Assembly (NCBI GenBank): GCA_021735645.1
Contig: JAIPGP010000043.1
Span: forward strand, 1-32,164
Reading direction: 5' to 3'
Source: Candidatus Cloacimonadota bacterium
GTDB lineage: Bacteria; Cloacimonadota; Cloacimonadia; Cloacimonadales; TCS61
Length of the DNA: 32,164 bases
Position 1 is the first letter of the stretch. The number at the start of each line of letters is the position of its first letter. A model generated the notes under the pieces. The model searched no databases. It saw only the letters and a program-made list of their open reading frames with translations, and was not told the origin of the DNA. Made by a program: the position numbers and the translations under genes. Below, in pieces: positions 28,813 to 32,164 of the stretch.

Positions 28813-30138
28813 TTATTTTTTCCAGATACTTGCCAGATCGCCGATGGCGCGTAATAATCCTAACTGGCTGGTATTATAATTATATATCCCGCTCGTTAGA
28901 GCTGCCCGGTTATTGGTATAGCTTAATTGAGCACCTAATACTTCCGTCTGGGTCACCATACCTTCCGTAAAATACAGATTCGCCAATCGTAAACTCTCCT
29001 CAGCCGTTGCCAATGCTTCTTCCTGGCTCTTCAAATTGTCCTTCGCTTCCAGATAGGCATAATAGCTCTGCTCCGCTTCCAGCTCCACCTGGTTAATGGT
29101 CAATTCCTTCGCTAAGGCCATCTTTTTACTGGCATAGCCTGCTTCCTGACTGTCAAACCACCGGCTGCCACCCTGGAATATCGGCATCTGCACTACCAGA
29201 CCTACACTGTTATAGGCGGCAAAATCATCTTTGCCTATCCACCAGTCATCGCTATATGCATAAAAATTTCTACCGGCTGTTAATACCACTTTCGGCATAA
29301 ATTGACTGGCTGCTAATAACTTCTGCTGGCTGACTGCTTTGCTCTGGTTATGGATTTGTACCACTTCTGCCCGGTTATCCCGCGCTAGATTCTTATATTC
29401 CTCTATCTGCAAACGGGCATATCCACCCAAAAATTCCTCGCGACTTAAAGTATCTTTCACCAGTACACTATCTGCTGCCGGAATATTTAAAAGCATCTTT
29501 AACTGGTTTAAGGCTGCTTTTCTCTGATTTCTGGCACTCTCCAGTTGCGGTATGCTCTCAAAATACCGCGTCCGTGCCTGCATCACTTCCAGCTCAGTTG
29601 CCGTGCCCACGCCCTCAAAACTCTCCACCTGACTTAAATTACGCTCCGCAAGTCCCATCGCCTCTGTATATACTTCCACCAGACTACCTGCCAATATTAC
29701 GCCAAAATATGCCTGCAGACTATTCAGCACCACATCGCTCTCCAAACCCTCCAGTTCCGCTGCCATCGATTTCTGTAAATGCTGCTGCATCTTCAAATTC
29801 GCATAACGCGCCCCGCCAACAAATAAGGGATAAGTCATACTTATGCTGTGACCAAACATATTATCAGCAGGTACCGGCATCTGAGCCTGAGTTAGCTCAT
29901 CATCGCTCCACAACCACTGATAATCCAGACTGGGCAAAAAACTGCCCCATGCCTTCTTCACCTCTGCAGCGGCTGTCTTATTATCAAGCTCCGCCATCTG
30001 CAAACTGAGATTATCTAACCTCACTATGCCTGCTACTTCGTCCCAGCTCAATTCTATCACCTTTATTTCTTCACTGTGTAATTGAGTAACTGAGAACATT
30101 AATAGTAATATTACTAAAATCCCAAATTTAGCTCTCAT
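28813..30138 (-). CDS. TolC-like outer-membrane efflux protein
   Basis: 441 residues of the outer-membrane efflux (OEP) family, which forms the trimeric exit duct of the pump. A signal peptide (MRAKFGILVILLLMFSVTQLHS) leads the protein. Two long alpha-helical repeats follow: the first has heptad stretches and GTATELEVMQARTRY (about 176-190), and the second has YLEAKDNLKSQEEALATAEESL and EGMVTQTEVLGAQLSY (about 370-410). These T-x-x-E/D-V-L/M-x-A repeats are diagnostic. The strong AGGAGGT site lies four bases before the ATG. It overlaps the regulator gene by four bases (ATGA), so the regulator and the duct are co-expressed. Confidence 0.94.
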   Translation of the reverse strand: MRAKFGILVILLLMFSVTQLHSEEIKVIELSWDEVAGIVRLDNLSLQMAELDNKTAAAEVKKAWGSFLPSLDYQWLWSDDELTQAQMPVPADNMFGHSISMTYPLFVGGARYANLKMQQHLQKSMAAELEGLESDVVLNSLQAYFGVILAGSLVEVYTEAMGLAERNLSQVESFEGVGTATELEVMQARTRYFESIPQLESARNQRKAALNQLKMLLNIPAADSVLVKDTLSREEFLGGYARLQIEEYKNLARDNRAEVVQIHNQSKAVSQQKLLAASQFMPKVVLTAGRNFYAYSDDWWIGKDDFAAYNSVGLVVQMPIFQGGSRWFDSQEAGYASKKMALAKELTINQVELEAEQSYYAYLEAKDNLKSQEEALATAEESLRLANLYFTEGMVTQTEVLGAQLSYTNNRAALTSGIYNYNTSQLGLLRAIGDLASIWKK

Positions 30139-30740
30139 TTGACCTCCTGTAATTCTGCCTGTATATTATCTAAATTATTGATTATAGCTATAAATGACCT
30201 GCAAATAAACATTTTATTCCTCTCCAGCACTTTCTCATCTTTGTGATAGGTCGCTATCACCATTGCCTGCAAACTCCGCACTGCCAGCCAGACAACTTCA
30301 TCGCTGTGTCCCTGCAGTTGCGGAAAACCTTTCTTAAAATATTTTATAACTCTCTCCCTTTCCCTTAGATGTTCTTTTTCCAGCCTGGATATCTCTGACT
30401 CCTCCTGTGATAGCAGGTAGATAAAAAAGTCCTTCCCTAATTTCCCTATCCGCTCTATTATATAGTGCATCTCACCCACTATCATACAAACCAGCTCATA
30501 GCTGTCATTTGTCCTGGCAAATTTAGCAGCAAAATCCTCATAACCTTTCTGCTTGATCAAGCGCAATATTTCTATCAGCAAATCCCACTTTGTAGGAAAA
30601 TAATTAAACAGCGTCCCTGCTGCAATATTACATTCCTGAGCTATTCTACTGGTCTTCACCTGATCATAGCCCTCTTTTATAAAAAGATAATAAGCTTTCT
30701 CAATGATCACCTCACGCACATTCTCGATTATTTTCGGCAT
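30135..30740 (-). CDS. TetR-family repressor of the efflux operon
   Basis: 201 residues from the ATG at 30740; a TTG just before it could add one residue, and a GGGGG ribosome site lies seven bases upstream. The N-terminal helix-turn-helix of the TetR family spans about 8-55: EKAYYLFIKEGYDQVKTSRI, then AGTLFNYFPTKWDLL. The C-terminal ligand-binding domain is all helical and unconserved. It is the first gene of the operon it probably represses. Two inverted repeats over the promoter (30756-30770, 30778-30792) fit autoregulation with induction by an exported compound. The inducer is unknown. Confidence 0.92.
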   Translation of the reverse strand: MPKIIENVREVIIEKAYYLFIKEGYDQVKTSRIAQECNIAAGTLFNYFPTKWDLLIEILRLIKQKGYEDFAAKFARTNDSYELVCMIVGEMHYIIERIGKLGKDFFIYLLSQEESEISRLEKEHLRERERVIKYFKKGFPQLQGHSDEVVWLAVRSLQAMVIATYHKDEKVLERNKMFICRSFIAIINNLDNIQAELQEVK

Positions 30741-30755
30741 CAATTAACCCCCTAT

Positions 30756-30797
30756 ATGAGTCACGCTCATTTCTTTTATGAGTGCCACTCATGTCAA
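30756..30797 (-). promoter_or_regulatory. Efflux operon promoter with two TetR operator candidates
   Basis: On the minus strand -35 TTGACA is at 30797-30792 and a weak -10 AGAAAT at 30774-30769 (17-base spacer). A perfect 15-bp palindrome, ATGAGTG-C-CACTCAT, occupies 30778-30792 inside the spacer. A second site, ATGAG-N5-CTCAT, occupies 30756-30770 over the end of the -10 and the likely start. Centres are 22 bp apart, about two helical turns, so two dimers could bind on the same face. Confidence 0.7.
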
Positions 30798-31140
30798 GAA
30801 CTTTTTTATTGCCCACATCCCCCCGAAATTTCCCAGGTTGCTCTTCACCCTGAAAGGGTTGGACTATCATAGCCATGGGTTTTAACCCATGAATTTAAAA
30901 TCACATGAAATCCCCACCCCTTCCCGTTTTCGGTTTTTCCGAAAACGGGAAAGGGTGGGGAGAATTTGCATTCTTTTTTCCACGGGTTTCATCTAGATTT
31001 ATCGGGACTATTAGGTTTTGCCGTAATATCACCTCGTCAGGACGTAATTGAATTTGATTAATTTGCCTGATGTAACATATTTAAATCAAATTACTTATGA
31101 TATTATATATTAAGATAAACCGGGGGATGCCAGCTTTTTT
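30798..31140. other. Gene-free stretch between efflux operon and HTH gene
   Basis: No gene is visible. It contains a short word CATCCCCCCGAAATT (30816-30830) shared with the right-hand repeats, the first copy of a hairpin-rich repeat (30847-30989), a 9-bp inverted repeat AATTTGATT/AATCAAATT (31051-31059, 31084-31092), and GGGGGATGCC (31122-31131). The last forms an inverted pair, GATGCCA/TGGCATC (31126-31132, 31149-31155), across the stop of the HTH gene. Confidence 0.6.
30847..30989. repeat. Hairpin-rich repeat element, copy A
   Basis: Three palindromes in a fixed order: ACCCT-GAA-AGGGT (30847-30859), CATGGGTT-TT-AACCCATG (30874-30891), and a 23-bp stem with one mismatch around a TTTTT loop (30911-30961; arms begin TCCCCACCCC and end GGGTGGGGA). 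Linkers such as AAAATCACATGAAAT are shared with copy B at 32023-32164, in the same orientation. No ORF lies inside. The form is that of a MITE- or REP-like non-coding element. Confidence 0.8.
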
Positions 31141-31584
31141 TTACTGAATGGCATCAATCTCACTGAGACTTAGCATCATATCTGCAATAAAAAGAGCATC
31201 TCCGCGAAATACCAGTTTTGCCCTCCGCTCTTTTTCATAATACAAAAACTCAAAATCGGAACGACGATAATTGTTATTCCCGCCATGTAATGCCCCAATG
31301 ATCATATTAGAATATGAAGACGCTTCCTCAAAATCTCTAACTGCTATCTCAACCTCTGCCCGGCAGTCAAATTTACGAATATTTCCTGATATTGACACTG
31401 CATCTTCTGATGCCATCCGATAGTTCTCGCCTTCCAGAAATTTACTTAGTTCATTACCTGAAACCCGCCATTCTCTACCAATCTTCACTGCCTCCAGTTT
31501 CCCTTCCCGCATAAATTTCTGCACAGTTTTCAAATGCAGTCCAACCTTCTCTGCCACCTCTTTGGAATTAAAATAAGTACCCAT
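31141..31584 (-). CDS. Excisionase-type (HTH_17) DNA-binding protein
   Basis: 147 residues. The N-terminal ~55 residues form a MerR/excisionase-like winged helix: FNSKEVAEKVGLHLKTVQKF, then REGKLEAVKIGREWRV and ELSKFLEGE. This is the helix-turn-helix-17 pattern used by excisionases and small regulators. The C-terminal ~90 residues are a separate, unrecognised domain that ends RAKLVFRGDALFIADMMLSLSEI, so this is not a bare excisionase but may be a small regulator with a sensing or dimerisation domain. AGGAGG precedes the ATG. A promoter-like site with a palindrome lies just upstream. The gene stands alone between two direct copies of a hairpin repeat, with no integrase beside it. DNA binding is well supported; targets are not known. 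Confidence 0.85.
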   Translation of the reverse strand: MGTYFNSKEVAEKVGLHLKTVQKFMREGKLEAVKIGREWRVSGNELSKFLEGENYRMASEDAVSISGNIRKFDCRAEVEIAVRDFEEASSYSNMIIGALHGGNNNYRRSDFEFLYYEKERRAKLVFRGDALFIADMMLSLSEIDAIQ

Positions 31585-31612
31585 TATTACCTCCTGTTAC
31601 TTTATAAGGTAT

Positions 31613-31642
31613 CTATAAGTAATATTAAGGAATTCCTGTCAA
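31613..31642 (-). promoter_or_regulatory. Candidate promoter and operator of the HTH gene
   Basis: Minus strand: -35 TTGACA at 31642-31637, an 18-base spacer, and -10 TTATAG at 31618-31613. A perfect 10-bp palindrome AGGAATTCCT (31628-31637) lies in the spacer and touches the -35. It is a natural site for autoregulation by the HTH protein. Confidence 0.5.
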
Positions 31643-31645
31643 GTA

Positions 31646-31690
31646 TTTTTTCCTATCGAAAGCTCGCATCCCCCTGAAATTAAAAAAAAA
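31646..31690. repeat. Short repeat unit, copy 1 (CCTATCGAAAGCT)
   Basis: TTTTTTCCTATCGAAAGCT (31646-31664) followed by CGCATCCCCC, TGAAATT and an A-run. The same order is found at 31964-32005, and a shorter form (CATCCCCCCGAAATT) is at 30816-30830. This copy lies directly upstream of the -35 box of the HTH gene. Confidence 0.7.
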
Positions 31691-31950
31691 CACTTCTGCC
31701 GCTAAGTTAGCCGTGCACCGCCGGGTATTTCCAGGTGGGGCGCAGATAACGACCGCTATCACTCATTCCCTGAAAATAAACTTGCTGCGGTGAAAAACAT
31801 AGATAGCTGCTGATAACTGCTCGTAGTTCTCGCCCCTCGCAGACCGTCCATAGCCTTGGGGGAGGATGGACTTCTCGCTACCGTTAGCGGTGCAAGTCCT
31901 ACTTATCAGGTCAATTATCATCAAGATTTCCGATTTGAAAAAAGAAATAC
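31691..31950. other. Structured non-coding stretch
   Basis: No convincing gene. It is dense in inverted repeats: GCTAAGTTAGC (31701-31711), GTCCAT/ATGGAC (31846-31851 with 31866-31871), and a two-tier hairpin GGACTT/AAGTCC (31868-31873 with 31894-31899) enclosing CGCTA/TAGCG (31876-31880 with 31885-31889). The last two stems share GGAC and exclude one another. It may be a structured RNA or the remains of a mobile element. Confidence 0.45.
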
Positions 31951-31951
31951 A

Positions 31952-32005
31952 GGGGGATGCCTGTTTTTTCCTATCGAAAGCTGGCATCACCCCGAAATTA
32001 AAAAA
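31952..32005. repeat. Short repeat unit, copy 2, within a hairpin
   Basis: GGGGGATGCC (31952-31961) pairs with GGCATC-A-CCCC (31983-31993) around a loop that holds most of TTTTTTCCTATCGAAAGCT (31964-31982). CGAAATTAAAAAA follows. It matches 31646-31690, and its left arm also matches 31122-31131. Confidence 0.7.
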
Positions 32006-32022
32006 TTAGCTGACTTCCAAAA

Positions 32023-32164
32023 TGCCCTGAAAGGGCATAACTTTAATAGTCATGGGTTTCAACCCATGGATTCAAAATCACATGAAATCCCCACCCCCCT
32101 GCCGTTTTCGACTTCGTCGAAAACGGCAGGGGGTGGGGTAAATTGGTTTCTTTATTTTCCATGG
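32023..32164. repeat. Hairpin-rich repeat element, copy B (runs off the window)
   Basis: Direct copy of 30847-30989 with the same three palindromes: TGCCCT-GAA-AGGGCA (32023-32037), CATGGGTT-TC-AACCCATG (32051-32068), and a long stem (32089-32138) with one bulged C. The arms of copy B differ from copy A but keep complementarity (CTGCCG with CGGCAG in place of TTCCCG with CGGGAA), which suggests selection on structure. The right end is cut by the window. Confidence 0.8.

Follow-up and report, generated by a model that had tools for sequence, protein, structure and literature searches.

Two hairpin-rich copies, at 30847-30989 and 32023-32164 of the window (the whole 32,164-nt stretch of DNA analysed, which is the entire contig C37 of a 3.77 Mb assembly of 151 contigs), are most probably the interiors of MITE-like elements (family A in the present study). 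These elements would insert in one orientation upstream of TTGACA promoters through the action of an enzyme supplied in trans, and would carry REPs of a Y1 transposase class inside (probability about 0.76). The initial annotation had described the copies as a direct pair with the same order of three palindromes and common linkers, and this was confirmed, with an identity of 86% over the first 73 nt and 71% over the next 68 nt. The positions that it gave are right but cover only part of the repeated unit: the first copy lies within a unit at 30812-31133, while the second is truncated, running off the contig end because the window is a complete contig. The annotation had overlooked the inverted repeats at the termini, the duplicated targets and, between the two copies, a third element with a different interior. 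Further genomic copies, which it had proposed to collect, are plentiful, a BLAST search with the first copy against its own assembly giving 44 matches at roughly 25 places.

The full unit (30812-31133) is about 320 bp long, with double-hairpin REPs in mutually inverted orientation on the two sides of a GC-rich central stem. It is bounded by 12-bp terminal inverted repeats, CTGGCATCCCCC...GGGGGATGCSAG, which recur in dozens of copies. The features of the window are as follows, L denoting the promoter-side end of an element and R the other end.

30135..30743, - strand: TetR-type regulator gene (PF00440, 50 bits), with element 1 in its promoter region
30792-30797, - strand: TTGACA of element 1, with 3 nt (TTC) between duplication and box
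30801..30811, - strand: promoter-side copy of the element 1 target duplication, CAATAAAAAAG, decayed (score 8/11)
30812..31133, - strand: element 1 (family A), complete, bounded by GGGGGATGC / GCATCCCCC pairing and by the same boundaries in other copies
30812-30823 and 31122-31133: L end and R end of element 1
30847..30892, + strand: L-side REP of element 1, with covarying helices 1 and 2, similar to the REPs of the transposase on contig C120
30847-30859: short hairpin of this REP, ACCCTGAAAGGGT
30869-30872: foot of this REP, ATAG
30873-30892: longer hairpin of this REP, CCATGGGTTTTAACCCATGA
30911..30961, + strand: central GC-rich stem of element 1, arms 30911-30933 and 30939-30961
30975..31044, - strand: R-side inverted REP of element 1, decayed (alignment A1)
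31134..31146, - strand: distal copy of the element 1 target duplication, CAGTAAAAAAAAG (- strand), overlapping the 3' end of the HTH gene
31141..31584, - strand: gene for a small HTH_17 (excisionase-type) DNA-binding protein (PF12728, 45 bits; TIGR01764, 37 bits)
31637-31642: TTGACA of element 2, 3 nt from the promoter-side duplication copy
31646..31662, - strand: promoter-side copy of the element 2 target duplication, CTTTCGATAGGAAAAAA (- strand)
31663..31963, - strand: element 2 (family B interior), with the same terminal repeats (31666-31960 plus flanking trinucleotides)
31964..31980, - strand: distal copy of the element 2 target duplication
31981..32164, + strand: element 3 (family A), represented by its L end and left half, laid out as in complete copies
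31984-31992: L end of element 3, GCATCACCC
32022..32069, + strand: L-side REP of element 3, with short hairpin ATGCCCTGAAAGGGCAT, foot ATAG (32046-32049) and longer hairpin TCATGGGTTTCAACCCATGG
32090..32138, + strand: central GC-rich stem of element 3, with compensated differences relative to 30911-30961

Element 3, which is cut by the contig end, contains the second of the two copies. The TetR-type gene is the first of a TolC / RND efflux operon, with RND permease and TolC-type genes downstream, and the HTH_17 gene stands isolated between elements 1 and 2.

Shared ends and unrelated interiors

In complete family A copies the order of parts is a short hairpin (CCCTGAAAGGG), the foot ATAG, a longer hairpin (CCATGGG..CCCATGG), the central stem, and then both hairpins inverted. 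The R-side REP, decayed in element 1, is intact in other copies (CCATGGG..CCCATGG-CTAT..CCCTTTCAGGG; alignment A1). The family A interior is therefore an inverted REP dimer around a third palindrome, similar to a BIME. The word GGGGGATGC, inverted on the two sides, ends all family A copies with preserved flanks, and it occurs 123 times in the genome compared with two occurrences of the reversed control.

The same pair of ends is common to at least four unrelated interiors in this genome, families A, B, C and D, and to further interiors in relatives. Family A is the interior of the two copies first annotated, family B occupies 31663-31963 between them, and family C consists of four other hairpins. 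Units range from 155 to 793 bp in length (mostly 254-357 bp), and their interiors are palindrome-rich and, by inspection, non-coding. Family B has nine members in the genome sample; its palindrome-rich interior (..GGACTTGCACCGCTGGCGGTA..GGGGCGAGAACTACGA..) was seen at 31663-31963 of the window and on contigs C108, C26, C59, C70 and C111, and a version in the relative G015 (L281) has long internal inverted repeats. At two other loci of G015 (L265 and L271) a family C-like hairpin set sits in the loop of the central GC-rich stem of another unit, an arrangement that suggests nested capture of REP arrays. A different repeat at C63:2304, C20:5950 and C96:23894 has GGGGGATGC internally, followed by a conserved CAGAAACTTGGTGCTATTTGTGAAATCCTACTGC, and is not of the promoter-side type.

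Many contigs of G000 start or stop within elements (e.g. C2, C17, C65, C73, C77, C84 and C113). Because contigs end inside them, the elements have fragmented the assembly and their copy number is underestimated. An assembly artefact was rejected as the source of the repeats, copies being found on many contigs with different flanks and also in other genomes.

Insertion upstream of TTGACA

From the L end (..AATTTCGGGGGGATGC) a TTGACA lies 15-25 nt onward, with a mode of 19-20, and the R end (..AAAACAGGGGGATGC) has no TTGACA after it. Among unselected GGGGGATGC sites (G000), an exact TTGACA was found beside 27 of the 42 L ends, compared with 1 of the 52 R ends; this is the only set in which the frequency of L ends beside TTGACA can be measured, because the sample from relatives was chosen by the presence of TTGACA near L ends. 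The arrangement GGGGGATGC-N13-25-TTGACA occurs 33 times in the genome under study and never in the control; across the phylum it is present in 38 of 125 genomes, where the control gave hardly any hits. The units have one orientation relative to the downstream TTGACA, and the tandem layout of the window recurs on other contigs.

Target duplications were assessed by matching a slice between the L end and the TTGACA box, fixed in advance, and were found at ≥80% match in 41 of 70 elements, whereas 200 permutations averaged 0.1 and never exceeded 1; the other 29 of the 70 showed no clear duplication. In a position-free test, 42 elements share an exact word of at least 9 nt, which in 31 of the 42 ends exactly 3 nt before TTGACA. 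The duplications are 10-18 bp long (mode 13-14), and their promoter-side edge usually lies exactly 3 nt upstream of TTGACA. That of element 2 is identical at 17 of 17 nt (31646-31662 versus 31964-31980) and was also detected as direct repeat D4; given this perfect 17-nt duplication, 3 nt from TTGACA, element 2 entered the interval that separates element 3 from the HTH gene promoter.

A same-strand open reading frame starts within 300 nt of the TTGACA box in 56 of 61 cases, 50 of them at 30-150 nt. A search downstream of TTGACA for the -10 consensus found no enrichment, and it is therefore from position, gene context and the conservation of two loci that we infer TTGACA to be the -35 hexamer of working promoters. 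It may instead be a mere target word, with surviving insertions biased toward intergenic sites.

Both of these conserved loci are empty in relatives. The promoter of the TetR/TolC/RND operon, directly upstream of which element 1 lies in this genome, is conserved around TTGACATGAGTGGCA-TCAT in G002 (same genus) and G015 (same family), where the element is absent. The promoter on contig C26, beside which the element has a 13/13 duplication, is conserved and empty in G015. The insertion polymorphism that the initial annotation had proposed to look for was thereby found at two sites, the genomes of the relatives being draft assemblies too.

The tight spacing between GGGGGATGC and TTGACA would also suit a global operator, that is, an activator site about 20 nt upstream of -35, with the repeats being regulatory cassettes upstream of promoters rather than insertions. 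We consider this highly unlikely, since the same word, inverted, closes the far side of the element away from any promoter, direct duplications flank the element, orthologous promoters lack GGGGGATGC, and the interiors differ.

Conserved hairpins and the Y1 transposase

In the long stems of the two copies, the 23-nt arms show 96% and 91% complementarity. The compensated changes first noted in these stems are borne out by this pairing and by double changes that persist over 18 copies, where the covariation previously suggested as a check is evident. In the alignment of the 18 copies, 95.7% of the cells of 36 pairs are paired, with double changes at 9 pairs and 31 cells compared with 4.7 and 8.3 in shuffles; control registers slid by 1-3 columns gave at most three double-change cells or pairs. 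Within the central GC-rich stem, double changes occur at 7 of 23 pairs. Examples of covarying columns are 100/122 (C-G in 11 copies, T-A in 4), 98/124 (C-G and G-C), 96/126 (T-A, C-G and A-T) and 8/20 (A-T in 11, G-C in 7). Relative to 200 dinucleotide shuffles, the folding z scores of the two copies are -6.2 and -8.1 on the + strand and -8.5 and -9.4 on the - strand; the stems fold equally well or better on either strand, like inverted repeats in DNA.

The compensatory changes indicate that the hairpins are preserved as inverted repeats, whether in DNA or in RNA. The earlier proposal that structure is selected stands insofar as the inverted repeats are kept as such, but covariation by itself does not tell selection on RNA from selection on DNA, because a DNA palindrome can keep its symmetry by template-directed correction from the other arm. 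A structured RNA, either a riboregulator or a 3' element resembling a terminator, that is preserved because it functions as RNA would account for the compensatory changes over 18 copies and for the very stable folds. We judge it very unlikely given that correction of palindromic DNA can also hold the symmetry, that both strands fold at least equally well, and that an Rfam search of the window returned no family at gathering score. The copies are, moreover, dispersed among unrelated genes, bear marks of mobility and are absent from two orthologous sites.

A matching transposase, another check proposed initially, is present. The genome has one strong Y1 transposase, on contig C120 (PF01797, 87.8 bits; NCBIfam IS200/IS605 transposase), and several double hairpins resembling those of family A lie on either side of its gene. 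The nearest solved structures to the protein are IS200/IS605 transposases such as ISHp608 TnpA, and its closest named relative, at 62% identity, is from a Candidatus Cloacimonadota MAG. The protein has the signature Y---Q--HH as YIKNQQEHH and gave one match in its own genome, as expected of a low-copy gene. The same signature was found in 75 of 77 related transposase loci from Bacteroidota, Verrucomicrobiota, Neomarinimicrobiota, Planctomycetota and others. Hairpins lie within 300-350 nt at all 77 loci, with a density of 5.85 per kb compared with 0.44 at least 1 kb away, and hairpins with a TAG/TAA foot are enriched 28-fold beside the transposases (2.1 versus 0.075 per kb). As in a REPtron, inverted REP copies flank the Y1 gene, both at C120 and as an orientation bias of the footed hairpins at the 77 loci (34:12 upstream and 41:16 downstream).

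The family A foot is ATAG/AATAG, in place of the GTAG of canonical REPs, with TAATAG nearly invariant across the 18 copies. Because the same design flanks the C120 gene and the 77 related loci, we accept the family A hairpins, from their design and sequence, as putative REPs of this Y1 transposase class. We further infer that the C120 protein would be their cognate single-strand nuclease, acting on the hairpins and not on the terminal repeats. In the sampled stretches, family A REPs are almost always within units with terminal repeats, the exceptions being the transposase flanks and fragments at contig ends.

The initial suggestion of REP/RAYT-type elements is accordingly upheld for the hairpins, which match the Y1-flanking REPs, but not for the unit as a whole, which has 12-bp terminal repeats and duplications of 10-18 bp. 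A plain REP/BIME (REPIN), in which the whole unit is a REP dimer spread by the Y1 transposase alone, would explain why the interior consists of two TAG-footed REPs in inverted orientation that resemble the ones beside the Y1 gene. We consider this quite improbable: the terminal repeats of family A copies with preserved flanks also bound unrelated interiors, and the duplications lie at a fixed distance from TTGACA. IS200/IS605 enzymes use a single-strand mechanism that leaves no target duplication, and the Y1 enzyme is therefore unlikely to move a unit with perfect terminal repeats and duplications of this kind.

The genome has three other Y1 (RAYT-like) genes, for which no links to family A hairpins were found. 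One of these (L034, contig C42, 2-523) contains six in-frame 11-residue repeats, NLRRGRRSSQG, between its HUH region and its C-terminal NPVKAGL region, and these resemble the in-gene REP insertions described for subclass 2.4 (PMC6006769). The other two (L032 on C103 and L033 on C52) are bordered by tandem repeats with periods of about 88 bp and 149-200 bp, in which no similarity to family A hairpins was found.

Known relatives and the proposed mobilising enzyme

The MITE-like unit is probably moved by an enzyme other than Y1; a second enzyme is needed because the units duplicate their target and because interiors need not contain this REP. Such a trans-acting enzyme, working on the terminal repeats, would recognise the -35 region, cutting first 3 nt upstream of -35 and a second time 10-18 nt further off. 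The element, and later further tandem elements, would in this way be placed without destroying the promoter core, and the Y1 transposase would act separately on the REP hairpins.

Literature searches for MITEs targeted to -35 sequences found nothing specific. To our knowledge, no known bacterial transposon chooses its target by a promoter element with single-nucleotide precision and in one orientation. We call the units MITEs in kind, and new in aiming at the -35 hexamer while carrying REP dimers. Other features that we regard as new are the target 3 nt upstream of TTGACA with one-sided anchoring of a variable duplication, the use of a single pair of ends by interiors of unrelated content, and the double-hairpin REP associated with subclass 1.2 transposases.

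Like bacterial MITEs such as Correia/NEMIS, RUP, ERIC and BrickBuilt (reviewed in PMC10969869), the units are short, without coding capacity, intergenic and present in many copies, with terminal inverted repeats, target duplications and internal hairpins. They differ in their fixed orientation and distance to TTGACA, in the long, variable duplication with one anchored edge and in the unrelated interiors on one pair of ends, and no parent IS was found. With REP/BIME/REPIN systems and their RAYT or TnpA-REP proteins (PMC2817692, PMC3116915, PMC6006769), the units share footed inverted palindrome dimers that flank a Y1 gene and occur in many copies. Unlike in those systems, the REP here is a double hairpin with an (A)TAG/TAA foot instead of GTAG, and in this genome it travels in units that have terminal repeats and a target duplication of their own. 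The C120 protein resembles TnpA-Y1 subclass 1.2 of Quentin et al. (2018, PMC6006769) in its Y---Q--HH signature, small size, low copy number and proximity to IS200/IS605 TnpA. Those authors report subclass 1.2 as generally without terminal secondary structures and, in the sections consulted, describe no REPs for it, unlike the flanking hairpins at 77 of 77 loci here. In targeting, the units come closest to the ISAjo2/IS1202 group, whose members enter 5 bp from the XerC site of dif; a single orientation and a fixed distance from a protein-binding site are common to both. Another IS1202 subgroup has unusually long duplications of 16-28 bp (PMC10132070). IS1202 is, however, a 1.5 kb autonomous IS with TGT/ACA ends and a dif target, in contrast to the CTGGCATCCCCC ends and -35 box found here (PMC10132070).

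If the proposed reading is true, a parasite could multiply beside genes while leaving them intact, and targeting of this kind would systematically rewrite intergenic DNA as well as the UP elements and activator sites ahead of -35 boxes. Promoter targeting also gives a concrete prediction on the missing transposase, and the Y---Q--HH Y1 transposases of several phyla gain a testable substrate in the flanking double-hairpin REP.

In three relatives (G015, G007 and G001), the surroundings of about 40 L ends, out to 7 kb, yielded neither an autonomous copy nor a transposase for the terminal repeats, and pairs of ends 1-6 kb apart were absent among the listed sites of three genomes. No unit above 793 bp had a matching duplication, longer ones being nested or tandem units. 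The missing autonomous copy is weak evidence, because draft assemblies break at repeats.

The long, variable duplication with one fixed edge raises the alternative that the same units are inserted by an unusual integrase, either Cas1-like or working by target-primed reverse transcription of a short RNA. DDE transposases as a rule give a near-constant duplication length, and variable duplications of 10-18 bp with one anchored edge are atypical of them. Against this alternative, which we consider improbable, the ends are perfect inverted repeats, as in DNA transposons. A casposon or Cas1 origin was rejected: the sole Cas1 of this genome belongs to a type I CRISPR-Cas operon of the ordinary kind, accompanied by a long array, and no Cas1 match was obtained in G015, the relative richest in sites (34; 97% complete). 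Casposons and their MITEs have duplications of about 14 bp and insert adjacent to a motif; the units are like them in both respects, and unlike them in having no element-associated Cas1. An origin by reverse transcription was likewise rejected: reverse transcriptases occur in element-rich and element-poor genomes alike, unrelated to element number, and the ones inspected resemble group II intron or diversity-generating retroelement types.

A bolder reading, which we regard as doubtful but possible, is a previously undescribed integration system that reads the -35 region, perhaps via a sigma-like domain or RNA polymerase, with a fixed first cut 3 nt before TTGACA and a loosely measured second one, and that stacks unrelated non-coding cassettes one way against the upstream side of promoters. 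Because duplication length is variable, its enzyme would fall outside the usual DDE transposases.

The reverse transcriptases at L332 (G007), L333 (G015) and L334 (G001) have an IGNLTSQ motif and look like those of diversity-generating retroelements. A large CRISPR array with the repeat GTTTCAATTCCTTAAAGGTCTGATTAAAAG extends over 950-13000 of L209 (contig C123), adjoining a type I cas operon.
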